Source: Treponema sp. (GTDB lineage: Bacteria > Spirochaetota > Spirochaetia > Treponematales > Treponemataceae). Taken from it: a stretch of DNA of 64,000 nt. The DNA lies in contig JAEESZ010000004.1 of the NCBI GenBank assembly GCA_016286535.1, forward strand, positions 124,001-188,000, given 5' to 3'. Every line of letters starts with the position of its first letter. Position 1 is the first letter of the stretch. Positions 1,988-32,156 of this stretch are shown piece by piece. The notes under the pieces were generated by a model. The model did not search any database. It was not told where the DNA came from and saw only the letters and a list, made by a program, of their open reading frames with translations. A program made the translations under genes and the position numbers.

Positions 1988-3665
1988 ATAACCCCCTTAC
2001 GTAATGATTATTTTTAGCAAGGCTTATTTCGCCCCTGTATTTTCCCGATTTTGACCAAACCTTATAAATATCCTTTCCTGTCTGGTAAACTGCAAATTCT
2101 TCCTTATCAAAAATTTTGATTAATTTTGCAACTTTCTCTGTTAATTCAATTTCTTCTTTTGAATTACAGGTAGCAGGATCATCTGCATACATAATCTGGC
2201 TTCCAAAAAGAATATTTACAGTTGCAATTAGAAGTTTTTCTGCATAAGTTAATGTACAGTTTTCCTTACGAATAAAAATTACATCCGGATCATTTGCAAA
2301 AATGATTTTATTCCATAAGGCTCTTCCAAGTGTGTCCTTTAAGTTTAAATATGCAGAGGTTCTACCATTCCAGCCGATAAACTTCATCAGCTTACTTTCC
2401 CAGTGCTGTAAAGTGTCGCAGCCGATTCTTGAAAGTGGCAGGTTGTTATAGCTTAATTCCATAGGATTTCCACAGCCTAAGTATGCTACATTTTCGCCCT
2501 TGTTATTAAAAACTCTTTTTGTAAGTACCTGAATGGCATTGTTAAAGGCCTGGTAAGAAGGGCAGGCCTTTTTATGTACTCCTTCCAGCATGCCGGCATA
2601 AAGAAAATCAAGTTTAAGATATCTGAAGCCCCAGGTATTGATTGCTTTATCAATCAGTTTATCAAGATGTTCAAGAACTTCATTCTGGCTTAAGTCAAGG
2701 CAGTAGAAGGTTGAGTTTGCACCCCATCTTGGATTCATTCCTGCAGGTACGAGATTACCTTTTTTATTTCGTAAAAGCCAGTGTGGATGGTCGGCTGCAA
2801 GTTTTGAACGTAAGTCAACAATAAATGGTGCAATCCAGAGGCCCGGAATGTAACCTTCGTCACTTATCATCTGAGTGATTTTTTCGGGTCCGGAAGGAAA
2901 GAGTTTTTTATTCCATTCCCAGTCTCCTAAGGCAATCTGGTAACCGTCATCAATCTGGAAAACCGGCTTGTCAAAATAATCAGACTTATTAAGAACTTTT
3001 ATAAGATTTTGTGTATCTTTTAAGGCCATTAAATCATCTGTAATTAATTTTTCATTGATTTTCTCATAGTGATTGTACCAGCTTTCCCAGCCCAGGGCAT
3101 TTTTTCCAAGAAAAGAAATCTGTTCAAAACGTGGACTGAAAAAGGGACTTTCTTTATTGCTGCTTCCAAAGATTTTTTCAAGCTTTTCTCTTGCGTCAAA
3201 ATAAGATGAGGCCTTGATAACTTCTATTTGAGCCATAAGGTCTCCTTTTTTCCATTCCTTGTCTTTATCTGCAAGTTCTACTGTTACGGTGTTTTCTTTT
3301 CTGTTGATTACAAACTGAACCGGTGGAAGTTTCTGATTCAGATTATTCAGGGAAGCAAAAATAAGATATTCCTCTTCGCATCTTAAATAAGTTATAAACT
3401 GGGCAAGAACAATATTTTTTGAGTATTCAAATTTTGATGAAGGGAAGGTAAGCCAGGTGTTCCACTGTCTGATTGCCTTATTTTTTAAAGAAGGTTGTTT
3501 TTTTCCCGGTTCAACTTCAAAGGCAGGATTCCATGACTGCCAGCCACCCAGGTTTATCCAGGCTTTTTTTGCATCTATAGTTTCGCTATAGTCGCGGATG
3601 TTAAAAAGGCCTGCGATTGTATTATTTTTAGCAGTATAATCTTCTGGACTTTTAAATGTAACCAT
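1974..3665 (-). CDS. GH36-family alpha-galactosidase (clan GH-D)
   Basis: 563 residues without a signal peptide, so probably cytoplasmic and acting on imported alpha-galactosides such as raffinose or galactomannan fragments. The catalytic barrel is clear: WESWYNHY, then FQIDDGYQ, GLWIAPF, and YLKLDFLYAG with the likely nucleophile near Asp353. RIGCDT near Asp417 is the likely acid/base. At about 350-420 these match the GH36 layout. It is shorter than the 700-residue GH36 enzymes because the N-terminal beta-supersandwich appears reduced. It is the first gene of a three-gene operon (GT-B-like protein and TetR regulator follow). The promoter and palindrome are at 3701-3754. Exact substrate is not shown by the sequence; alpha-galactosidase is the most likely activity. 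Confidence 0.85.
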   Translation of the reverse strand: MVTFKSPEDYTAKNNTIAGLFNIRDYSETIDAKKAWINLGGWQSWNPAFEVEPGKKQPSLKNKAIRQWNTWLTFPSSKFEYSKNIVLAQFITYLRCEEEYLIFASLNNLNQKLPPVQFVINRKENTVTVELADKDKEWKKGDLMAQIEVIKASSYFDAREKLEKIFGSSNKESPFFSPRFEQISFLGKNALGWESWYNHYEKINEKLITDDLMALKDTQNLIKVLNKSDYFDKPVFQIDDGYQIALGDWEWNKKLFPSGPEKITQMISDEGYIPGLWIAPFIVDLRSKLAADHPHWLLRNKKGNLVPAGMNPRWGANSTFYCLDLSQNEVLEHLDKLIDKAINTWGFRYLKLDFLYAGMLEGVHKKACPSYQAFNNAIQVLTKRVFNNKGENVAYLGCGNPMELSYNNLPLSRIGCDTLQHWESKLMKFIGWNGRTSAYLNLKDTLGRALWNKIIFANDPDVIFIRKENCTLTYAEKLLIATVNILFGSQIMYADDPATCNSKEEIELTEKVAKLIKIFDKEEFAVYQTGKDIYKVWSKSGKYRGEISLAKNNHYVRGLYEDF

Positions 3666-3700
3666 AACAGCTTCCTATTGAAATGATAGAGACTTAATAA

Positions 3701-3723
3701 AAGTGATAGTATTACTATCACTT
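3701..3723. promoter_or_regulatory. 23-bp perfect palindrome, likely repressor operator
   Basis: Two 11-base arms, AAGTGATAGTA and TACTATCACTT, are exact reverse complements around one central T. It lies directly downstream of the -10 box of the GH36 promoter, over the predicted transcription start. That position suits a repressor. The TetR-family gene in the same operon is the best candidate protein. The pairing of protein and site is inference. Confidence 0.75.
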
Positions 3724-3726
3724 ACT

Positions 3727-3754
3727 ATAATATCATAATTAAAAATGCTGTCAA
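3727..3754 (-). promoter_or_regulatory. Sigma-70 promoter of the GH36 operon
   Basis: Read on the minus strand: -35 TTGACA (3754-3749), 16-base spacer, -10 TATTAT (3732-3727). It lies in the 105-base gap after rlmN, so the GH36 operon has its own start. Confidence 0.75.
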
Positions 3755-3770
3755 TGATTTTTTTTTGCTT

Positions 3771-4799
3771 TTATTGATTATCTGCTTTTTTACTGACTCC
3801 CAGCTGACCGCAGGCACCGCCAATTTTTCTTCCGCGACGGGTTCTTAAAGTAACATTTAAGCCTTCTCTTTCTAAGAGACTGACAAACTTTTGTACTTCG
3901 TTTTTACCGGGTTCTGTAAAAGGCAGGCTTGAAACCGGATTCCAGGGAATAAGGTTTATGTTTACATCAGAATCAGCTGCAAAGTTTATAAGGTTTCTGG
4001 CTGATTTTTCGTCAGTGTTTGTGTCATGAAGTAAGGCTGCTTCCAGGGTGACTCTTTTACCTGATTTTTCTGCGTAATAGTCAATTGCCTTTTTAAGCTC
4101 GCTTAAAGGATTTCCGATTGTAACCGGCATTATTTCTTTTCTTAATTCTTCGTTGGCGGTGGTAAGGGAGACTGCAAGCCTGATGTGGGGGCCGTTATCT
4201 GCAAGATCATAAATACCTTTTACAATGCCGCAGGTAGAAAGGGTAATTCTCTTGGAAGAAAGGGCTCTTCCATCTTTATGACAGAGAATCTGAATTGCCT
4301 TTCTTATGGCAGAAAGATTCTGCATTGGTTCTCCCATTCCCATAAAAACGATGTTATCGAGTTTGCCTGCAATTTTTTCAAGGTACAAAAACTGCTCTAC
4401 TATTTCGTAAGCTTCCAGATTTCTTGAAAGTCCAAGAGTTCCTGTCATACAAAAAGCGCATTTCATGGCACAACCGGCCTGACAACTTACGCAGGCAGTT
4501 TTTCTGTCTTCTTTGTCGGTAAGTAAAACTGTTTCAACTGCATTATTGTCTGAAAGGGTAATCTGAAGCTTAATTGTTCCGTCCGGATCTTTTAAAATAT
4601 TAGAAACCTTTGAGGAACGTAAGAGGGCTTTTTCTTTAAGTTGATTTCTTAAATCAAGACTGAGATTGGTCATGGAATCAAAATCTTCAACTCCCTGACC
4701 AACCCATTTAAAAATTTGTTTTCCTCTAAAAGCCTGACCTAAGTCAAGCTTTTGAGTAATTTCATCGCTAAGTAAACCTGTAAGAACTATTTTATCCAT
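3771..4799 (-). CDS. rlmN: 23S rRNA (adenine2503-C2)-methyltransferase RlmN
   Basis: 342 residues, the usual RlmN length. It methylates C2 of A2503 in 23S rRNA, and in this family often also A37 of some tRNAs, by radical-SAM chemistry. The radical-SAM cluster cysteines are Cys110, Cys114 and Cys117 (CAMKCAFC). The family's second catalytic cysteine is in GGACGQLG near the C-terminus (about Cys330). FMGMGEPMQN is the conserved SAM-binding element. The start ATG lies 9 bases after the TPR gene stop, so the two are probably co-transcribed. Confidence 0.97.
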   Translation of the reverse strand: MDKIVLTGLLSDEITQKLDLGQAFRGKQIFKWVGQGVEDFDSMTNLSLDLRNQLKEKALLRSSKVSNILKDPDGTIKLQITLSDNNAVETVLLTDKEDRKTACVSCQAGCAMKCAFCMTGTLGLSRNLEAYEIVEQFLYLEKIAGKLDNIVFMGMGEPMQNLSAIRKAIQILCHKDGRALSSKRITLSTCGIVKGIYDLADNGPHIRLAVSLTTANEELRKEIMPVTIGNPLSELKKAIDYYAEKSGKRVTLEAALLHDTNTDEKSARNLINFAADSDVNINLIPWNPVSSLPFTEPGKNEVQKFVSLLEREGLNVTLRTRRGRKIGGACGQLGVSKKADNQ

Positions 4800-4808
4800 A
4801 ATTAAAAA

Positions 4809-5978
4809 CTAACTTCGATTGATTTTTTCGAGTGCAGTTCTAATTATGTTGTTTCGTCCGTCAGATTTCAAGTACTCTTCGAGAAGTTTTACAGCATCGT
4901 TCTTTCTGTTAAGACTTACATAACAGTCTGCAAGGTCGATGTATAATCTTCCGTTTCTTGGATCATTTTTAATAAGATTTTCAAATCTGGCTGCAGCCTG
5001 TTCAATATTGCCTTCCCCCTTACAGATTAAGGCAAGTCCAATTGCTGCATAAATATCAAAATCAATTTCGAGTGCCTTGTTGTAATATTCTTTAGCCTTG
5101 TCGTAGTTTCCTGTTGTTCTGAAGGCATCTCCTGCACGGGTAAGAATTACCTTGTTGTTAGGATCAATTTCAAGAATTTTATTCCAGTATTCAATTGATT
5201 TGTACTGCTGGTTCATACCCCGGTAGCAGTCTGCAAGACCGAAGAGGGCATAGAAGTTATGAGGTTCTCTTTCAAGGGCTTTTTCAAAATATGGAACTCC
5301 CTTGTCAAAAGTCTTTAATTTTCTATGGCAGTTTCCAATAGAAGTAAGAACACGAATATCTACGCTGTCTTTATTAATGTCATAAACTTTTGTCCAGTAA
5401 TAAAGAGCATCCTTATATTCCTTAAAATCATAGTTTAAGTGACCAAGACCAATTAAGGCATATGGATTATTTAATTCCATTTCAAGAACTTTCAGGTATA
5501 AATCTTTAGATTTCTTAAAATCGTGGATTTTTCTGTAGGCATCTGCAACTCTTGTAATTACTGTGATGTTTTTATCATCGTGAACAAGGTACTGCTGCCA
5601 TACATCAATAGCCTTGCTGAACTGATTTTGAGATTTGTAACAGTCAGCAAGTCCAAATAAAGCATAGTTATTTGAAGGATAGTAGTTGAGACATTTCTGA
5701 TAATACTTAATAGCAAGATCCATGTGGTTCTGTTTTCTTTCTGTATCACCAAGTCCTACCAGTGCGTAATTGTTATTTTCTTCAATTTCAAGAATTTCTT
5801 CAAAAGCGCTTTTTGCACCTTCAAAATCGTTTTCTTTAATCAGCTGATATCCGCGTTTAGAGATTTCTGTGATTTTTGCCAGGGTTTCATTTGTGTCGGC
5901 CGATTCCATTGGAGGCATCTGTGGCATCTGAAAATCATCTGGTAAGTAATTGTCATTTTCTGTAATACTATTTTGCAT
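4809..5978 (-). CDS. Tetratricopeptide-repeat protein
   Basis: 389 residues made almost entirely of TPR units from about residue 30 to 380. The recurring pattern is YALxGLxDCY, then YYxKxLExxPxN, at a period of about 34 residues, roughly nine to ten units. There is no signal peptide or membrane segment, so it is probably a cytoplasmic scaffold for protein contacts. A GAAAGGA ribosome site precedes the ATG. It sits between a small spirochaetal protein and rlmN on the same strand. Partner proteins cannot be told from the sequence. Confidence 0.85.
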   Translation of the reverse strand: MQNSITENDNYLPDDFQMPQMPPMESADTNETLAKITEISKRGYQLIKENDFEGAKSAFEEILEIEENNNYALVGLGDTERKQNHMDLAIKYYQKCLNYYPSNNYALFGLADCYKSQNQFSKAIDVWQQYLVHDDKNITVITRVADAYRKIHDFKKSKDLYLKVLEMELNNPYALIGLGHLNYDFKEYKDALYYWTKVYDINKDSVDIRVLTSIGNCHRKLKTFDKGVPYFEKALEREPHNFYALFGLADCYRGMNQQYKSIEYWNKILEIDPNNKVILTRAGDAFRTTGNYDKAKEYYNKALEIDFDIYAAIGLALICKGEGNIEQAAARFENLIKNDPRNGRLYIDLADCYVSLNRKNDAVKLLEEYLKSDGRNNIIRTALEKINRS

Positions 5979-6018
5979 AATTTTTATCCTTTCATCTTTT
6001 TTATATTTTATTCACTTT

Positions 6019-23605: not shown

Positions 23606-24100
23606 ATGGATAAATCGTTGCCCTTAATTAGCATTCAAATAAAGTTGTTTTTTCAAAGTCCTATTTTTGTTGCCTGTTTTTGCAGCTGGTTTGGTGCCCA
23701 GTTCATAAAGACTGCCATCAATCTTTGTTACGGAAAAGTAAAATCATTTAAACAGCTTATAGAACTGATGATGGTTAAGACCGGAGGCATGCCTTCCAGC
23801 CATTCAGCTCTTGTTACAGCCCTTGCAACATCGATTGGAATCAGAAATGGATTAAACTCAGATATCTTTTTTGTATCAGCAGTTTTCTGGGCAGTTGTAA
23901 TCAGAGATGCCTTTGGTGTACGCCGCTCAAACGGAATGGGCATAAAAAGAATTAACGAATTATCTGAAGATCTTTCTAAAAAAAATCTTATAGAACCTTA
24001 TAAACCTTTAAAAGAAGTAAACGGGCATAAACCTATGGAAGTAGTCTGCGGCTGTTTTTTGGGATTGTTCATTGCTTTAGGCTGTACCTTACTTAAATGA
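23606..24100 (+). CDS. Divergent PAP2-family (DUF212) membrane protein
   Basis: 164 residues with four or so hydrophobic segments. The MVKTGGMPSSHSALVTAL motif and RDAFGVRRSNG are signatures of the DUF212/divergent PAP2 family, which is distantly related to lipid phosphatases. The role is unknown. Its stop overlaps the next start by 4 bases (ATGA), so it is translationally coupled to the 457-residue membrane protein and the RNF-like genes. Confidence 0.88.
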   Translation: MDKSLPLISIQIKLFFQSPIFVACFCSWFGAQFIKTAINLCYGKVKSFKQLIELMMVKTGGMPSSHSALVTALATSIGIRNGLNSDIFFVSAVFWAVVIRDAFGVRRSNGMGIKRINELSEDLSKKNLIEPYKPLKEVNGHKPMEVVCGCFLGLFIALGCTLLK

Positions 24101-25470
24101 AAAAATATTTAATCTTTATTTCGCCCCTCATTTTTCTGCTTTCCCTTGTAATGCTTTTCTGTTTTAAAACAGTACCAAAAGGTAAATTGTGGGACAGTTA
24201 CAGCATCCTCTACATGCCCCTGGAAAGTCACGAGGACCAGGTTCTGGAAGTTTTTAAAGAACTTGAAATTAATGAGCATTTTGAACTTTCGAATCAGTAT
24301 ATTCCACTTAATTATTCAGCCTTTTCTCCAGAAATTACAATGCTGCGTCTTAATTCCACCTCTCAGGATTTTTCTTACCTTACAAAACGCAATGCATATT
24401 TTTTTGATAAATCGGGTAAATACAAATTATTTTATATTCCGTCAAAATATAAAAAATCCTTAAAAAACTGTCAGACTCTTCTTGCCAAAAAGGGCATTAA
24501 GGCCGGTATTGATGCTTCAGCTTCCTATCCTTTTGCCGTTGCCCTGATAAGCCTGCTGCTTTTTATCTTTCTAAGCCTTTATTCAAAAAACAGGACAATT
24601 TTTATTGCGGGTGCTTTTCCTCTGCTTGTCTTTGCTTTTACAAATCCTTTTTATTCTGCTGCCGCAGCCTATTGTCTTATAGTGTTAAGCCTCTTTTTAT
24701 TTTCTAACGTTTTTGAAAGAAAGGGCTGGCTTTCCTTCCTGCTTGCAAACTACTTTATTCCGCTTTTACTTTTTTTTGCCCTTCTGCTTGCCTTTGCTTC
24801 AAGCTTAAAATGCGCTTTTATGTTTATAATCAGCCTGTGTGCAAGTGTAAGCGGCATTTATTATCTTGTCTGCATAAAAGATTATTTAAAAAATAAAAAA
24901 TCTTTTGTTCCGGTTTATATCAGGCCGGCCAGAAAGGTTTCTTTATATGCAGAAAAAAAATCACAGACAATGATTCTTTTAATCAGCTCCCTTGTGTTTT
25001 TGACTGCAATTTCCATTATTTCTAATACGGGTCTGGTAAGTGCTGGTTTTTCTAAAATTTCTTTACCGGCCGCTAACGGTGGGAAGGGGGAACTTGTAAA
25101 TCTTAATGATTATTATGATTTTGCCTGGAATGTTTCAGCTTTGCCATACCGTTCGCTCAATAAAAGTTCCGACAAAAATTATATTGAGTATCCCCGCTAC
25201 AGCGACAACGGAAACAAAATTACCGAAAATAAACTTATAAAAGCTTATAACCAGAATTATAAAAATCAGCTTTTTGACCAGATAGATTTACTGCCTTTTA
25301 ATGCAATAGAAAAGGTCTTGAAATCTCAGAAAAATCTTGAAAAAGCCGGCTACACAAAGAGTGCTTCCTTAACAACAGGAATTTTTGCAATAATAATGAT
25401 GTTTATAAGTCTATCCATATTACTATTTATTTATATTTCTAGTATTATAAGAAAAGGTGCAAAAGGATGA
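24097..25470 (+). CDS. Unrecognised multi-span membrane protein, first partner of the RNF-like operon
   Basis: 457 residues. One membrane segment at about 4-22, then a hydrophilic domain (about 25-145), about five to six membrane segments (about 145-260 and 285-310), a second hydrophilic domain (about 315-425), and a last membrane segment (about 428-450). It has no cysteine ligand pattern or recognisable family. It overlaps both neighbours by 4 bases (ATGA), and so is made with RnfC. This suggests an accessory subunit or assembly factor for the complex. Function is not known to me. Confidence 0.75.
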   Translation: MKKYLIFISPLIFLLSLVMLFCFKTVPKGKLWDSYSILYMPLESHEDQVLEVFKELEINEHFELSNQYIPLNYSAFSPEITMLRLNSTSQDFSYLTKRNAYFFDKSGKYKLFYIPSKYKKSLKNCQTLLAKKGIKAGIDASASYPFAVALISLLLFIFLSLYSKNRTIFIAGAFPLLVFAFTNPFYSAAAAYCLIVLSLFLFSNVFERKGWLSFLLANYFIPLLLFFALLLAFASSLKCAFMFIISLCASVSGIYYLVCIKDYLKNKKSFVPVYIRPARKVSLYAEKKSQTMILLISSLVFLTAISIISNTGLVSAGFSKISLPAANGGKGELVNLNDYYDFAWNVSALPYRSLNKSSDKNYIEYPRYSDNGNKITENKLIKAYNQNYKNQLFDQIDLLPFNAIEKVLKSQKNLEKAGYTKSASLTTGIFAIIMMFISLSILLFIYISSIIRKGAKG

Positions 25471-26768
25471 TAACATATACAGCCAATAATTCACTGCAGG
25501 ATTATAAATATACTCAGACTGCATTTTTACCACATAATCTTCTTGTTCCTCTTTCCCAGGATTCAGGCCATACCTGTAAGAGTCTTGTAAAAAGCGGAGA
25601 CCGGGTTTCTGAAGGTCAGATTATTGCAAGGGCAGATGATTATTTAGATATTACAATTCATTCTCCTCTTCCGGGAACCATACTTGATGTAGAAGCCTGT
25701 GTTAGTCCAAACGGAAAACTTGAGCATGCCATAAGAATAGAAATGGAAGGAAAGTTTTCTTACCTTGGTAAAAAACTTGAAGCTGCAGACTGGCAGAAAA
25801 TGTCTTCTTCCGAAATCATAAGAAAAATCAGGGAAAAAAGCCTGGTAAACACCTTTAAAACTAATGAACCTGTGAATCTTGCATCCCAGATAGAAAAGGC
25901 AAAAAAAGCACAGGCACTTATTGTAAGATTATTTGATGAAGATCCTACCAGAATTACAGATTCCCTTGTTTTTAAGTTTTATTTTGACCAGATAGTTACA
26001 GGCTCTCAGATTCTTGCAAAGGCAATGGGCTTTAATAAAATTGTTTTTGCAATTAATAAGGAATTAAAGAATAAGGATGAATATCTTTCAAAAGAACTTT
26101 CTGATATTCATTTTCTTGAGATGGGAATTGTACGCTATCCTTGTGGAACTCCAAGAGAAATCTGTTCTGCTTTTTCAAGAAACCTAAAAAAGACAAAGGA
26201 TTTTGTAATTACAAAAAATGATTTGTTTATAGATTCATCAACTGCCTACGATATTTATAAGGCTGTTGTAATGGATATTCCATCCATGAGTAAGCTAGTG
26301 CATTTTTCCGGTAACTGCCTTTATGCATCCTGCCTGCTTGAAGTAAAAATTGGAACTACCTTCAGGGATATTGTAAATCAGCTGGGAGGTTTTGCTAAAA
26401 AGCCTGCCTTAGTTATTGTAAACGGTGCCCTTAGTGGAGTTTCTGTTTCAGATTTAGATGTTCCTGTTACAAAATACGTAAAATCGGTTACTTTTAACAG
26501 CAGTAAATCCTTTACAGATGAACACATTTATTCCTGCATAAACTGCGGAGACTGCCGTGCTGCCTGCCCGGTACATATTTCTCCTGATATTATTTACAAC
26601 AATGCAGTAAATTTTAAGGAATTACCTGAGCAGATAGAAAAATCTACCTTTGCCTGCATAGACTGCGGCCGCTGTAATACAGTTTGCCCTGCACGTCTTC
26701 CTCTCTGCCAGTCAATTTCGGTAGTAAAACAGAGATTAATCAATAAAAATAAAGAGGAAAAACAATAA
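25467..26768 (+). CDS. rnfC: RnfC-like subunit, NADH/FMN motif not found
   Basis: 433 residues, about the length of RnfC. The C-terminus has two ferredoxin motifs: CINCGDCRAACP (about 357-368) and CIDCGRCNTVCP (about 396-407). The N-terminal barrel-sandwich domain (HNLLVPLSQDSGHTCKSLV, then HSPLPGTI) and the SLBB-like region (FRDIVNQLGGF) fit RnfC. The expected flavin/NADH motif GxGGAGFPT should fall near 125-145. There the sequence reads KSLVNTFKTNEPV instead, and the usual ECEP motif is DEDP. So this subunit keeps iron-sulfur sites but probably not the NADH site. Ends 11 bases before rnfD. Confidence 0.85.
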   Translation: MITYTANNSLQDYKYTQTAFLPHNLLVPLSQDSGHTCKSLVKSGDRVSEGQIIARADDYLDITIHSPLPGTILDVEACVSPNGKLEHAIRIEMEGKFSYLGKKLEAADWQKMSSSEIIRKIREKSLVNTFKTNEPVNLASQIEKAKKAQALIVRLFDEDPTRITDSLVFKFYFDQIVTGSQILAKAMGFNKIVFAINKELKNKDEYLSKELSDIHFLEMGIVRYPCGTPREICSAFSRNLKKTKDFVITKNDLFIDSSTAYDIYKAVVMDIPSMSKLVHFSGNCLYASCLLEVKIGTTFRDIVNQLGGFAKKPALVIVNGALSGVSVSDLDVPVTKYVKSVTFNSSKSFTDEHIYSCINCGDCRAACPVHISPDIIYNNAVNFKELPEQIEKSTFACIDCGRCNTVCPARLPLCQSISVVKQRLINKNKEEKQ

Positions 26769-26779
26769 AAGGAATAACT

Positions 26780-27856
26780 ATGACAAAAAAGAATAAGTTA
26801 AAAAGCCGCGAAATTTCCATGCGTCCCTTTGTCTATTTAAGACCTTCAATTTCTGAAATTTCCATAAGATTTTTAGTTTTATTGTCTCTTTATGTAATCA
26901 TGCTTTTGTGCACAAAAAGCTATTCTGCCTTTCTTGTTGTTTTGACTTCAGTTTTAGGCTCTCTTTGTGCCGCTTCCTTAAACTTTTTAATTTTTAAGGA
27001 GCCTCCTTTCCACGCAATAACAATCCTTAATCAGGGCTTAATAATCGGCCTTTTACTGCCTGAGCATTATCCGGTTCTGGTTGTTTTCTTTCTTACATTT
27101 TTTACTCTTTTTGTTTCCCGCTGTCTTATTTTTAAGAGCATAAATTCATGGCTGAATATTGCGGCAGTTGCGGTAATTATGGCCTGGTTTGTAGGAAAAA
27201 AATATTTCCCTTCCTTTCTGGTAACTTCAGATTTACTTGCCGTAAGAAATCCTTCCGTTTATCTTATCGAAAACGGAATTTTCCCAATTTATGATTTTGA
27301 CCGCACTGTAATTTCTTTCTTAAACGAAAAGATTTTTTCACTGCTGCATGTAACAGTTCCCGAAGGTTTTGTCTCTCTGCTCTGGGATTCAAAATCTGCA
27401 ATTCCTGCCTTCAGATTTAATCTTCTTACAATAATCTGTTCTATCATTGTTTTTTCAGACAAGGCTTTCAGTTCAAGCATTCCTTGTCTTTTCCTCCTTG
27501 TTTACAGCCTTTTAGTAAGACTTTTTGCACCTTTAATTAACGGGGGAGCTTTTAACCAGGGAGATATTATTCTTGCCTTACTTTCAAGCGGAACTCTTTT
27601 CTGCCTGGTATTTATGCTTCAGTGGTTCGGTACAACACCGGTAACTCTGGGCGGAAAAATTGCCTATGGAATATTATCTGGAATTTTATATTTTATAATC
27701 GTTGGACTTGGAACCAGCCCTATAGGTATGGTTTATACCGTTCTTATTATGAATATCATTAATCTTATAATCAGATCTCTTGAAGAGCAGAAAAATACAA
27801 AAATTATGGATAACGTTGTATTAACACATCCTGTTGCCGTAAGCGAGGAAAAATAA
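26780..27856 (+). CDS. rnfD: RnfD-like membrane subunit, flavinylation motif not evident
   Basis: 358 residues with about nine to ten membrane segments. RnfD/NqrB order and size fit, and FVYLRPSIS and LNQGLIIGLLLPE match conserved early segments. The flavin attachment motif (S-G-A-T) expected near the middle is not seen. The nearest segment is DSKSAIPAFRFN (about 206-217), which has no threonine in the right place. LINGGAFNQGDIILALLSSGTLF is the conserved late segment. In the usual complex RnfD carries covalent FMN and moves ions. The loss is my reading by eye. Confidence 0.8.
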   Translation: MTKKNKLKSREISMRPFVYLRPSISEISIRFLVLLSLYVIMLLCTKSYSAFLVVLTSVLGSLCAASLNFLIFKEPPFHAITILNQGLIIGLLLPEHYPVLVVFFLTFFTLFVSRCLIFKSINSWLNIAAVAVIMAWFVGKKYFPSFLVTSDLLAVRNPSVYLIENGIFPIYDFDRTVISFLNEKIFSLLHVTVPEGFVSLLWDSKSAIPAFRFNLLTIICSIIVFSDKAFSSSIPCLFLLVYSLLVRLFAPLINGGAFNQGDIILALLSSGTLFCLVFMLQWFGTTPVTLGGKIAYGILSGILYFIIVGLGTSPIGMVYTVLIMNIINLIIRSLEEQKNTKIMDNVVLTHPVAVSEEK

Positions 27857-27857
27857 A

Positions 27858-28313
27858 TTGGACGACAAGATTTATAAGACATATTTTATTAAGCTTGGAA
27901 TTTTTACTCTTTTTATAGCAATAATTCTTGGAATTCTGATTTATTCTTCAGTACTTTCAAGAAAATCCTGGCAGAAAAATTTAAGAAGCAGTGTAGAAAA
28001 GGTTTTAGACGAAGCTGATTCCAATACCTGGATTGTTGGAAATTATGTACCGCTTAATAATACCTTTACAATTAATGCTGCCTGCTACGAAGTAAATAAC
28101 AGAAAATCCGGCCTTCCTTACAAGGCAATTATAATTAGAGTTACAACCTTTTATGGTCCTGTAGCCCTGGTTTTTACAATTGATGAGGATGAAAATGTTG
28201 AGTTTAAGGGTGTTTCTTCCTTACACGGAAGAATTGCTTCAAACTTGTCTCTGAATAAGTATTCCAAAAGAATTGAGTACTGGGAAACTAGAATTCCTTA
28301 TATCTTAAAGTAG
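27858..28313 (+). CDS. rnfG: Short RnfG-like subunit, lacks the C-terminal flavin motif
   Basis: 151 residues from a TTG start with a GAGG ribosome site. RnfG proteins are usually 190-210. An N-terminal membrane anchor (about 11-33) precedes the first half of an FMN_bind-like domain (YKAIIIRVTTFYGPVALVFTI). The protein stops soon after HGRIASNLSLNKYSKRIEYW, before the place where the flavin threonine (SGAT) motif should be. Only 8 bases separate its stop from rnfE, so there is no room for a frameshifted remainder. Confidence 0.8.
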   Translation: MDDKIYKTYFIKLGIFTLFIAIILGILIYSSVLSRKSWQKNLRSSVEKVLDEADSNTWIVGNYVPLNNTFTINAACYEVNNRKSGLPYKAIIIRVTTFYGPVALVFTIDEDENVEFKGVSSLHGRIASNLSLNKYSKRIEYWETRIPYILK

Positions 28314-28321
28314 GTTTTAAA

Positions 28322-28939
28322 ATGAGGATGAATAAAACACAAATTTACATAGCAGCTTACCTTGCAATTTTAATTCCCACACCAGGAAGATTTGTTTATG
28401 GCTTAACCATAATGCTCGAAATACTTCTTCTTGCAGCCGTAGGCTTATTAATGAACGCCCTTATAAAACAGCTTAAAATGGAAAAACTTAGAACTGCAAT
28501 TTTATTAACAACTATGGTTGCTTTTTCTATTTTTTACCGTCAGTTATTTACAATTTTTCAGACCGAATTATCTTTAACTTTAGGTTATATTTTTTATCTG
28601 CCTGCAGTTTCTCTTTTTACCATTGGTTTACTTTACGAAGATAAAGACAAAACAATAATCGAAAGAGCAGGGCTTTTATTTACCAAGGTTGCCATCTTCT
28701 GCATTTCGGGATTATTCTTCTTTTTATTCCGTGATATTGCAGGCTTTGGAACCTTTACTTTCTACGGTCCAAACCATCAGATTATTGAAAAGGTACTTTT
28801 TAATCCAGAGACAGTAGGAATCTTTACTTTCTTTGCTTCTATTCCCGGAGCCCTTATACTTTCGGGTCTTGCTCTTTTTGTAAACATTCTGGCCCGCCAG
28901 CAGCTGGATATTCTTGAAAAAGGGGAGGCTAACAAATGA
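28322..28939 (+). CDS. rnfE: RnfE-like membrane subunit without the expected cysteines
   Basis: 205 residues with about six membrane segments. It fits RnfE by order, size and topology. RnfA/RnfE/NqrD/NqrE proteins carry two conserved cysteines (in LGLCP and NCAILGR segments) that hold the intramembrane 2Fe-2S cluster. Here the matching segments read IPTPGRFVYG and YLPAVSLFTIGLL, with no cysteine. The only cysteine is near residue 132 and is out of place. Stop overlaps rnfA by 4 bases. Confidence 0.75.
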   Translation: MRMNKTQIYIAAYLAILIPTPGRFVYGLTIMLEILLLAAVGLLMNALIKQLKMEKLRTAILLTTMVAFSIFYRQLFTIFQTELSLTLGYIFYLPAVSLFTIGLLYEDKDKTIIERAGLLFTKVAIFCISGLFFFLFRDIAGFGTFTFYGPNHQIIEKVLFNPETVGIFTFFASIPGALILSGLALFVNILARQQLDILEKGEANK

Positions 28940-29499
28940 TTTATTTAGACACCTTTGCCTTTTATACCTTATTCAGTTCGGCAGTATTATTTTATGGAAT
29001 TGGAATAAATAAAATCTCTGATTTTGACAGCGATTTAAGAAATAACATATCCCTCTTAATCAAAATGATTCTCACCATTATGCTTACATCACTTTTAAGC
29101 TGGGGAGTTATAAAAATCGTTCTTATTCCTTTAAAACTTGTTGAGCTTTATCCTTTAATTGCACTTTTAATTTTTATTTGTGTAAATGTACTTTTTGAAG
29201 TTATTGTAAGGCTTGTAAGCGGAAAAGTTTCTTCAGAATTCATCATTTCTTATCTGATTGTTCTGCTTTCCATTTCAGAAAGTATTTCCTTACTGAATTC
29301 TATGATTATTTGTGCCGGCTGTTTTGTTTCTTTCCTTTTACTCTGGCCATTTGTTACAACTTTCCGTAACAAACTTCGCTCTAACGGAAACAGCCTGAAT
29401 GCAAGTTACTACAGTCTTTTATTTTTATTCCTTGCATTATTAATTATAATCATTTCTGTTTTTGATGTTTCATGGCTTAATGCGGGGGTAATAGAATGA
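28936..29499 (+). CDS. rnfA: RnfA-like membrane subunit without the expected cysteines
   Basis: 187 residues with six membrane segments. Position and topology fit RnfA. The first conserved segment, usually LGICPFLG, reads FYGIGINKIS. The second, usually NCAVLGVAL, reads LSISESISLL. So neither cluster cysteine is in place. Cys64, Cys122 and Cys127 (approximate) lie in other helices. The start overlaps rnfE and the stop overlaps rnfB by 4 bases each. Confidence 0.72.
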   Translation: MIYLDTFAFYTLFSSAVLFYGIGINKISDFDSDLRNNISLLIKMILTIMLTSLLSWGVIKIVLIPLKLVELYPLIALLIFICVNVLFEVIVRLVSGKVSSEFIISYLIVLLSISESISLLNSMIICAGCFVSFLLLWPFVTTFRNKLRSNGNSLNASYYSLLFLFLALLIIIISVFDVSWLNAGVIE

Positions 29500-30104
29500 T
29501 TTTACCAATTTTACTTTTTATTTTAATCATACTGGTTATTTGTGTAACAATTGTTTTTTTATTTTACATTTTATTGCCAACTCTCGAAAAACAGGGCTAT
29601 AAAACTTCAGATTCAATTGTTTCTGCTACAGAAAAGTATTACGAAATCACTCTGGATACAGAGATTAAGTCTTCTGATTCAAAGGCTCTGGTGCTTTGTT
29701 CCTGCAAAAAGACTTTTCAGCTTCCTTCAATTAATTTTAAGGAACAGTATACCTGCTTTATGGTAAAATCCATGCATGGTTCTGGAACAGACTGTAAATA
29801 TGCCTGTATTGGTTTAGGAGACTGTGCAAAAGTTTGTCCGCAAAAGGCAATCAGCATAGTAAACAGAACGGCAGTAGTAAGCAGTCTTTGTATAGGCTGT
29901 GGAAAATGTCTTACAGTTTGTCCTCAGAACATTATAAAACTTGTACCAAAAGATACAAAAAGCATTGTTTTATGTAATAACAATCAGGCAAAGGAAATTA
30001 CTTCCTGTTCAGATTTTGGAAAGACAGAAAATGTTTCATGGAATGCATCAAAAGGCTTTAAAATCTGGGAATATTGTTATAGAATATTAAAAGGTAAAAA
30101 ATAA
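29496..30104 (+). CDS. rnfB: RnfB-like ferredoxin subunit, N-terminal cluster domain absent
   Basis: 202 residues. N-terminal membrane anchor (about 3-26). RnfB normally has next a 4Fe-4S domain (NCGxCG...C). This is missing; residues 27-62 have no cysteine. After ALVLCSCKKTF comes the typical C-terminal ferredoxin: CKYACIGLGDCAKVCP (about 99-114) and CIGCGKCLTVCP (about 131-142). So it keeps two clusters and loses one. It is the last gene of the operon, as RnfB is in rnfCDGEAB clusters. It would be the ferredoxin-facing subunit. Confidence 0.85.
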   Translation: MILPILLFILIILVICVTIVFLFYILLPTLEKQGYKTSDSIVSATEKYYEITLDTEIKSSDSKALVLCSCKKTFQLPSINFKEQYTCFMVKSMHGSGTDCKYACIGLGDCAKVCPQKAISIVNRTAVVSSLCIGCGKCLTVCPQNIIKLVPKDTKSIVLCNNNQAKEITSCSDFGKTENVSWNASKGFKIWEYCYRILKGKK

Positions 30105-30182
30105 ATTTAAGCCTTAAGGGGAAAGGTTTAATATTAAAAAAAATGAGTCAGGATTGTTTTGGTGGGGCAGTCTGTATGAGAA

Positions 30183-32156
30183 ATGGAATTTGTATACGTC
30201 AGCTTCAGTCTAAAGTTAAATGAATCAGGTTTTGAGACTTCCAGTTCATTTGATAAAGATTACAAAACAATTTATGCGCCTCTTATAAAATTTTTGTTTT
30301 CTCATCCAAATTTTAAATTCTCATTATCTTTTACCGGTCCGGAAATTGAATATTTTAAAAAGCGTCACAACGAACTTTTTACAGTATGTAAAACCCTTAT
30401 AGACAGAAATCAGATAGAGATTCTAGGCGGCGGTTTTTATAATCCAATACTTCCTTTGCTTTCTTCTGTAGACAGAAACGGTCAGCTTGATAAACTTTCT
30501 TTAGAAATAAGACAGAATTTTGGAAAAAGACCAAGAGGAGCCGTTTTATTCGCAGATATCTGGGATTCTTCTTTAGTTGCAACCTTAGAAAGCTGCGGTT
30601 TTGAATATGTTTTACTTGATTCAAATATTGTTCCTGCAGAAAAAAGAAAGATGCTTCCTTTAATTATGTCAGATCTGGGAAAAAAGGTAGATATTTATCC
30701 TGAATACTCAAACATGATTGCTTCTTCAAAAGTGACTGTTGATGATTTTGTTTTAAATATAATTAAGGACAGCGAAAAAATAGAAAAAAAGGACGATTAT
30801 TTTCAGTTTTCTCCGGACAGAATTATAAATATTTCCTTAAGCCATGAAGAACTTCAGATTTTACTTGAAAATAAATGGTTCGAAAAACTTGATTCTTATT
30901 TAAAAGATAATCCGGATACAAAATTAAAGCTTGCAACTACAGGCGATTTTCATAAAAATCATCAGACCAAGCTTCCATGTTATATTCATAACGGAGTAAA
31001 TAAAAAACTCTCGCAGGTTTACAATGATGCTTCTTCTATTAATGAGATTTTAGATTCCCTTCCTTTAAGCCGTGCTTTATACAACAGAATTATTTATGTT
31101 GCCTTAATGCTTAATCAGAATAAAGGGGACAAAATAAGAAAAATTGCTGCCAGAGAAATGCTGTGGAAGGCACAGAATGGGCTTTCTTTAATATATTCTG
31201 TCCAGAATGTTTCGATGAATTTTAAATGCAGGCAGGCTTCTTACAAAGCTCTTGTAGAAGCAGAAAAAATACTTCGCCAGGACGGAAATTTTAAAGAGTC
31301 AATCATCTGCTTTGATTATAATTTTGACGGTAATAACGAATATGTCTGCCGCATGGAAAATTATTTTGCATATGTTTCTTTAATAAGCGGGGCTATCAGG
31401 GAACTGGATGTTTTTAAAAACTCCGGAAATTATGCAGATAATTTAAGCCGGCTTGAAAAATATGATACTTATGATGATGCTTACCAGAGGGGAATCTTCG
31501 TAGATCATCTTTTTAATGAAGTTCAGTTCGAAAGTTATGTTAATTCCCTTCCTTCGGGAGACGGAGTTTTTTCAAGAATCCGTTACAGTGAATTAAAATT
31601 TTCGCGTCATCATAACGAAATTCAGCTTTCGGCAAATGCCTTATTTGGTGCAACAAAGCAGCCGATTTACCTTAGAAAAAAATATATTGTAAATTCAAAC
31701 GGAATGAACGTTCAGTATATTATTAAAAACCTGAGTAATAAGCCTTTAGTCGCAAAGTTTGCCGTTGAATCTAATTTTGCAAATCCTTCTTTTGATGCAG
31801 AAAATCCTGCTTATTTTAACGTAGAAGTTGCAGACTGCGATTATGTAAGATTACTCGATTCAAAAAAATCTACAAAAGATTTATATAAAAAGGGCAAATT
31901 AAAGAATGTAGATGTAGTAAGACTCAGTGACTTACAAAACGGAGTTTCTTTTGCCTTTGAGCCAAACGAAAACTGCGGCTATAACTTTAATCCTATAATT
32001 TTTAACCGCCCTGACGGAAAAAACGGAAAACTTATACCTGTTCAGAATACCTTTGTTTCTACACTTTACTGGGATATCAACATTGAATCCGGAATGGAAA
32101 CAGAAAAAAACATCAACTTTACTATCTCTTCAATAAAGAAAGAAAAGCAGAAATAA
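30183..32156 (+). CDS. GH57-like protein with DUF1926-type C-terminus, catalytic residues apparently missing
   Basis: 657 residues. The N-terminal part (about 1-300) is a GH57 barrel: FYNPILPLLSSVDRNGQ and the FGKRPRGAVLF region match 4-alpha-glucanotransferases of that family. The C-terminal half (about 380-655) is the DUF1926-type beta domain. In active enzymes the nucleophile Glu sits in a TERVW segment. Here it reads FADIWD, with no Glu. The acid/base segment (DDGEKFG) seems replaced by SHEELQI. So it may be a non-catalytic relative that binds alpha-glucan. 78 bases after rnfB. Activity must be treated as unknown. Confidence 0.7.
   Translation: MEFVYVSFSLKLNESGFETSSSFDKDYKTIYAPLIKFLFSHPNFKFSLSFTGPEIEYFKKRHNELFTVCKTLIDRNQIEILGGGFYNPILPLLSSVDRNGQLDKLSLEIRQNFGKRPRGAVLFADIWDSSLVATLESCGFEYVLLDSNIVPAEKRKMLPLIMSDLGKKVDIYPEYSNMIASSKVTVDDFVLNIIKDSEKIEKKDDYFQFSPDRIINISLSHEELQILLENKWFEKLDSYLKDNPDTKLKLATTGDFHKNHQTKLPCYIHNGVNKKLSQVYNDASSINEILDSLPLSRALYNRIIYVALMLNQNKGDKIRKIAAREMLWKAQNGLSLIYSVQNVSMNFKCRQASYKALVEAEKILRQDGNFKESIICFDYNFDGNNEYVCRMENYFAYVSLISGAIRELDVFKNSGNYADNLSRLEKYDTYDDAYQRGIFVDHLFNEVQFESYVNSLPSGDGVFSRIRYSELKFSRHHNEIQLSANALFGATKQPIYLRKKYIVNSNGMNVQYIIKNLSNKPLVAKFAVESNFANPSFDAENPAYFNVEVADCDYVRLLDSKKSTKDLYKKGKLKNVDVVRLSDLQNGVSFAFEPNENCGYNFNPIIFNRPDGKNGKLIPVQNTFVSTLYWDINIESGMETEKNINFTISSIKKEKQK

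Follow-up and report, generated by a model that had tools for sequence, protein, structure and literature searches.

A Treponema RNF-like operon that lacks most redox cofactor sites and is kept under purifying selection

Six rnf-like genes and their products

The DNA analysed here (the window) is a stretch of 64,000 nucleotides from a Treponema sp., covering positions 124001-188000 of contig C16 in a draft genome of 2.55 Mb that is 93% complete and whose relatives include Treponema bryantii. Six rnf-like genes lie on the forward strand at 25467-30104 in the order C-D-G-E-A-B, immediately behind a forward-strand gene for a 457-residue membrane protein (24097-25470). The six genes overlap or are nearly adjacent, and all frames are open. 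The original prediction for this DNA had described an RNF-like operon in this order, and both the reading frames and the homology of the products agree with it. In Pfam searches, matches were obtained for the RnfC-like protein (433 residues, 25467-26768; RnfC_N and Fer4, with Complex1_51K below its cut-off), the RnfD-like protein (26780-27856; NQR2_RnfD_RnfE, PF03116, 3e-30) and the RnfB-like protein (29496-30104; Fer4). No Pfam match was seen for the RnfG-like protein (27858-28313, with a TTG start) or for the RnfE-like (28322-28939) and RnfA-like (28936-29499) membrane subunits of the window, all likewise encoded on the forward strand.

Homology was assessed using profile-profile alignment (hhalign), wherein same-genus alignments were compared with canonical spirochaete Rnf subunits. 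The best match was the protein's own canonical counterpart for C (E-value 3e-45), D (1e-21), E (2e-9, 96% probability), A (2e-6, 90% probability) and B (8e-26). By this method, the RnfG-like protein could not be related to RnfG by sequence from its own family, and the copy from another family of the order (f2) gives a weak bridge at 61%. A predicted model of the RnfG-like protein (pLDDT 88.5) was also compared with 350,542 chains using Foldseek, and the first hit was RnfG of A. vinelandii (8rb9_G, prob 0.80, E 0.07). RnfG and NqrC chains are among the top structural matches in VIA, with approximately 140 of 151 residues aligned at a Z of 5-6. As these structural scores are modest, the predicted identity of this shortened protein leans partly on its position in the operon.

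Cofactor sites lost and retained

In RNF, electrons travel from RnfB, the ferredoxin-docking subunit, through A/E, G and D to C. The cofactor sites along this route were compared with those of some ten canonical copies in related genomes, as well as with copies from the class, order and family, and column conservation was computed on 87-97 distinct same-genus orthologues. Aligned to the canonical copies, the RnfC-like protein lacks the GxGGAxFP and ECEP motifs, i.e. the site for NADH and flavin mononucleotide (FMN). The flavin-binding Thr is gone from both the RnfD-like and the RnfG-like proteins, and the whole FMN-binding Thr region is absent from the latter. All four cysteines that hold the [2Fe-2S] cluster of A/E are missing, both in E and both in A, and the RnfB-like protein has no N-terminal 4Fe-4S domain, which is the first cluster domain of RnfB. 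Each of these losses had been suspected by eye in the original prediction, and the alignments bear them out. A canonical RNF with overlooked motifs is ruled out by the canonical copies and the orthologues, and a frameshift hiding the motifs is ruled out by orthologues of similar length.

What remains is equally consistent. The eight cysteines of the RnfC-like protein, which correspond to two 4Fe-4S clusters, are conserved at 99-100% in the genus and are present in all 80 sequences compared, whether stripped of other sites or not. The RnfB-like protein retains one two-cluster ferredoxin domain, in which seven cysteines are conserved at 100% and the remaining one, the first, at 70%; a further cysteine outside the domain, C87, is also at 100%. 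The expectation of two clusters each in C and B thus holds. Judged from these residues, the only iron-sulfur (Fe-S) clusters left are cytoplasmic: C has two in every case, and B frequently has two.

The RnfD-like protein shows one further loss that had not been foreseen: the riboflavin-contacting Asp (equivalent to D249 of A. woodii; reference PMC11889175) is replaced in the genus, while the contacting Asn (N123 equivalent) is kept as N126. The A. woodii Rnf complex no longer reduces NAD with ferredoxin when the A/E cysteines, the Thr of RnfG or the RnfD residues that contact riboflavin are mutated (PMC11889175). Because the NADH, FMN (in C, D and G) and membrane [2Fe-2S] sites are lost, the known electron path from the cytoplasm through A/E, G and D to C is absent. 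No membrane station of the route is left, save for a possible non-covalent flavin in D, where the Asn contact is kept and the Asp replaced. On the same residue losses, ordinary RNF function, i.e. ferredoxin:NAD electron transfer with ion pumping, is unlikely, as had been supposed.

We also considered that the complex might still be a redox pump, with other cofactors such as a non-covalent flavin, haem or quinone in its membrane core. The retained Asn of RnfD is in keeping with this, as are two loci of another family (f5; L074 and L075), in which D has no FMN Thr and the Asn and Asp that contact riboflavin are both in place, so that D of f5 may be an intermediate with a non-covalent flavin only. 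However, in the alignments of 87-97 orthologues, D, G, E and the 457-residue protein have no column with Cys or His at 60% or more, and the RnfA-like protein has a single one, C129, at 70%. Furthermore, A and E lack the only known site for transmembrane transfer, and we regard this explanation as improbable. Three Glu residues of the RnfA-like protein (E70, E101 and E115) are conserved.

New conserved residues are found in two subunits. In the genus, the RnfC-like protein has gained, close to the lost motifs, a near-invariant N128-T129-F130 and R154..D157.D159, so that NTF and RLFDEDP stand in place of the NADH/FMN motifs, and the RnfD-like protein carries an invariant block W202-D203....I208-P-A-F-R-F-N. 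These blocks favour a new interface or ligand over relics of the old sites.

Selection and ancestry of the stripped locus

The operon was read beside the 457-residue protein gene, which is present in 139 of 145 genomes of the family, in 31 same-genus loci, nine loci of other genera of the family and 80 further loci that include T. bryantii, T. ruminis, T. parvum, T. saccharophilum and T. zioleckii, with some loci shared between the two same-genus sets. The median ratio of non-synonymous to synonymous substitution rates (dN/dS) in close pairs is 0.03 for C, 0.05 for D, 0.09 for G, 0.08 for E, 0.04 for A, 0.05 for B and 0.08 for the 457-residue protein gene. Because of these low medians, and because orthologues occur throughout the family, the stripped operon is not decaying; that it is under strong purifying selection is well supported, as the original prediction had surmised from the intact frames. 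An RNF in slow decay, a pseudo-operon, might be suggested by the stepwise losses across lineages and by the disappearance of B, or of the whole RNF part, from some loci. This possibility is rejected by the dN/dS values of all seven genes, by frames that are long and intact in nearly all loci read, and by the new invariant motifs, and we consider it the least probable of the explanations weighed here.

RnfB is missing between RnfA and GH57 in five same-genus loci (L047, L052, L053, L056 and L062). It is likewise absent from its place between RnfA and the next gene, GH57 or another, in L074-L076, L078, L079, L190, L192 and L193, and in all of these loci RnfC keeps all its clusters. The ferredoxin-binding complex of the original prediction stays a conjecture: RnfB is dispensed with in five loci of the genus and in several families, whereas the RnfC clusters never are.

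A second, canonical rnf operon, which it had been proposed to look for, is present in the host genome on contig C12 with all motifs, and many genomes hold both operons. This co-occurrence would suit a structural or assembly partner of canonical RNF, acting in mixed complexes or in regulation of the pump. Four near-complete genomes, G018 (99%), G034 (96%), G020 (95%) and G028 (97%), strongly contradict such a role, as they keep the stripped operon and have no Pfam-recognisable Rnf-Nqr subunit; we judge it highly improbable. ApbE, the covalent flavin transferase, is absent from G018 and G034. It is also absent from G037, a genome of another family that has no canonical copies and whose D lacks the Thr. 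With no ApbE, these three genomes cannot make covalent flavoproteins by the ApbE route. The stripped operon is thus independent of both canonical RNF and ApbE.

The surroundings of the operon show its origin. Upstream of the 457-residue protein gene lies a DUF212 (divergent PAP2) gene (23606-24100, forward strand; PF02681, 1.9e-39), and downstream of the RnfB-like gene a GH57 alpha-glucanotransferase-like gene (30183-32156, forward strand; PF03065, 6.6e-23). Both are constant neighbours across the class, DUF212 in the same position in most loci read, and together they flank the locus both in the window (23606-32156) and in the 20 class-level loci read (L175-L194). The arrangement DUF212, 457-residue-like gene, C-D-G-E-A-(B), GH57 is found in all eleven loci read from other families of the order, apart from the missing 457-residue protein gene in L073, the absence of B in some and contig ends, and it recurs at class level. 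In most class-level families read, the locus encodes an RNF with all cofactor sites. For example, the locus of a genome in one contig (L188) has matches above the Pfam cut-offs to Complex1_51K, FMN_bind, Rnf-Nqr (twice) and FeS. In a tree of RnfD, copies from this locus and second copies, including that of the C12 operon, are split at 99.8% SH-aLRT. Taken together, the class-wide synteny and the RnfD tree show that the window operon was inherited vertically and represents the old RNF of the class, not a young duplicate. A recent duplication of the C12 operon is ruled out on the same grounds, and this placement of the locus as the original RNF rather than a new paralogue goes beyond what had been predicted.

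The families of the order differ in how far stripping has gone. In the f2 locus (L072) C is weakened, but the four A/E cysteines and the Thr of both D and G are still there. In f3 and f4 the C site is lost and the G Thr mostly so, while the D Thr, most A/E cysteines and a full B are mostly kept (less so in L076 and L071). In f5 and in the family of the window nearly all sites are lost. Loci from other families of the class (L180, L185, L190, L192 and L193) are stripped to differing degrees. On a locus tree built from the neighbouring DUF212 and GH57 genes, in which branch support is uneven, several changes are needed to account for the missing A/E cysteines, and a single clade for all losers is rejected (p 1.4e-5). 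For the spirochaete class the window locus is the ancestral one for RNF, and it has been stripped several times independently. In the stripped copies compared, the constant survivors are the two 4Fe-4S clusters of RnfC and the D-G-E-A membrane core.

The upstream membrane protein and a possible role

Within the class, the profile of the 457-residue protein has matches in 91 of 148 genomes, which represent 51 of 78 genera; outside the class there is one marginal match. In Pfam and NCBIfam, a chance-level match to RseC_MucC in one of 24 members was the sole result. An AlphaFold2 model built from 73 sequences (pLDDT 87.9, pTM 0.75) predicts, in order, a first transmembrane helix (TM1), a periplasmic alpha/beta domain, TM2 to TM6, TM7, periplasmic strands and TM8. 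The best Foldseek match is an MmpL-type protein (prob 0.85, E 0.03), SecDF also being found and nothing falling under E 0.001. The top 50 in VIA are mostly Patched, AcrB, NPC1, SecDF and MmpL, at Z values of 6.3-7.7 that lie below the caution level of the tool. With both scores under their caution limits, an RND-like fold is a lead. Charged columns conserved at 90% or more (R98, D104, D139, R208 and E405) all lie outside the predicted helices, and the orthologue alignment and model give no conserved acidic residue inside them that could act as a proton relay, which speaks against a proton-driven RND pump. In one genome (G030; L023/L052) the gene is interrupted and split into two frames, by either an assembly error or a true break. 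Strongly reduced genomes, namely G078 of the same family (1.1 Mb) and those of class family f24 (1.0-1.5 Mb), are without the RND-like gene of the locus.

As to whether this protein is a partner of the complex, as was originally suggested, that its gene accompanies the locus throughout the class is clear; a coupling between the two is drawn from synteny, with exceptions in both directions. L073, in genome G037, is a stripped RNF locus with no RND-like gene anywhere in the genome at the profile threshold. In L191 (genome G213, 2369-6004) the 457-residue protein gene lies directly between DUF212 and GH57, and the rnf genes are absent; here the RNF part has been lost at the locus and the RND-like gene retained.

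On balance, we favour the view that the operon encodes an RNF scaffold with no membrane redox path that has been kept for a new task, which may be Fe-S-controlled transport together with the RND-like partner. Cofactor loss and selection are well supported, while the task itself is what we infer; a former electron pump has probably been retained for a different job. In such a complex, the D-G-E-A core would no longer pump ions with electron energy and would instead provide the RND-like protein encoded upstream with a membrane scaffold or a conformational module. The Fe-S arm of C, together with B in copies that have it, would bind a cytoplasmic partner or sense redox state and would thereby control the membrane module, for example in the gated transport of an ion or an envelope component. 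The NTF and RLFDEDP motifs of C and the WDxxxxIPAFRFN block of D would then be likely new interfaces. More specifically, the membrane core and the RND-like protein may form a single module and the Fe-S arm may set its state, a proposal that we make tentatively. Several points weigh against this scheme: the modest Foldseek and VIA scores leave the predicted RND assignment weak; conserved transmembrane acids, expected of proton-driven RND pumps, are missing from the model; D may still hold a non-covalent flavin through its retained Asn; the presumed coupling has the G037 and L191 exceptions; and the partner may be something other than ferredoxin, because several lineages have no RnfB.

The main alternative is that only cytoplasmic electron transfer survives, with C and B taking electrons from ferredoxin and delivering them, at the membrane surface, to an acceptor in the cytoplasm while the core acts as an anchor, by analogy with the Rsx system that reduces SoxR in E. 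coli. The invariance of eight cysteines in C and seven in B while all else was lost fits this. It is weakened by the lineages that have no B, and the locus contains no acceptor gene; five integral or anchored subunits at dN/dS 0.04-0.09 would moreover be much for a mere anchor. We therefore consider it unlikely, and return to a scaffold kept for another task. A broader possibility, which we would sooner doubt than assert, is that a redox pump was turned several times independently within one class into a complex that works with an RND-like protein and has no transmembrane redox path, in which case the fully redox-active ancestor would already have had that second function as well and been bifunctional before it lost the electron path.

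RNF and NQR are treated as electron-driven ion pumps for which flavins and the membrane [2Fe-2S] cluster are indispensable. A cofactor-stripped RNF found family-wide under strong selection shows that selection can act on a function of the complex apart from transmembrane electron transfer. The natural intermediates supply an ordered series of cofactor losses, and a second role of RNF becomes testable in spirochaetes whose copy at this locus is redox-complete. Genomes such as G018 and G034 would, if annotated by gene name, be assigned an RNF pump that they probably lack.

Among known systems, RNF itself (7zc6, 8ahx, 8rb9, 9eri) shares with the window operon homologous C, D, E, A and B subunits, a putative G counterpart, the order C-D-G-E-A-B and the two 4Fe-4S clusters of RnfC, and other families of the class have a full RNF at the orthologous locus. 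The window operon differs in having no NADH/FMN site in C, flavin Thr in D and G or [2Fe-2S] cysteines in A and E, in the loss of the first 4Fe-4S domain of B or of B altogether, in its new invariant motifs in C and D and in the RND-like gene upstream. Na+-NQR is a derivative of RNF in which NqrA, a descendant of RnfC, has lost the 4Fe-4S ligands and the NADH/FMN sites, and RnfB has been lost (PMC4014512). It keeps the membrane flavins and [2Fe-2S] cluster and has given up the 4Fe-4S clusters of C, whereas the window operon has done the reverse; no nqrF is found among the open reading frames of the operon. Two-subunit Nqr/Rnf-like complexes have an NqrB/RnfD-like subunit with no flavinylation Thr (PMC11334425), as in the window, but they carry a fused NAD-binding domain, retain the G-like flavin and have no C, E, A or B. 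The 457-residue protein resembles the RND superfamily (MmpL, SecDF, AcrB, Patched) in predicted topology and in weak structural matches, and differs from it in having about eight rather than 12 transmembrane helices in the model, in lacking a conserved transmembrane acid and in being virtually restricted to the class. Searches of an open-access library found no description of a cofactor-free RNF, of an RNF-linked RND protein in spirochaetes or of the present locus. In short, the stripped complex descends from RNF and yet, judged by its residues, fails most of the features by which RNF is defined.

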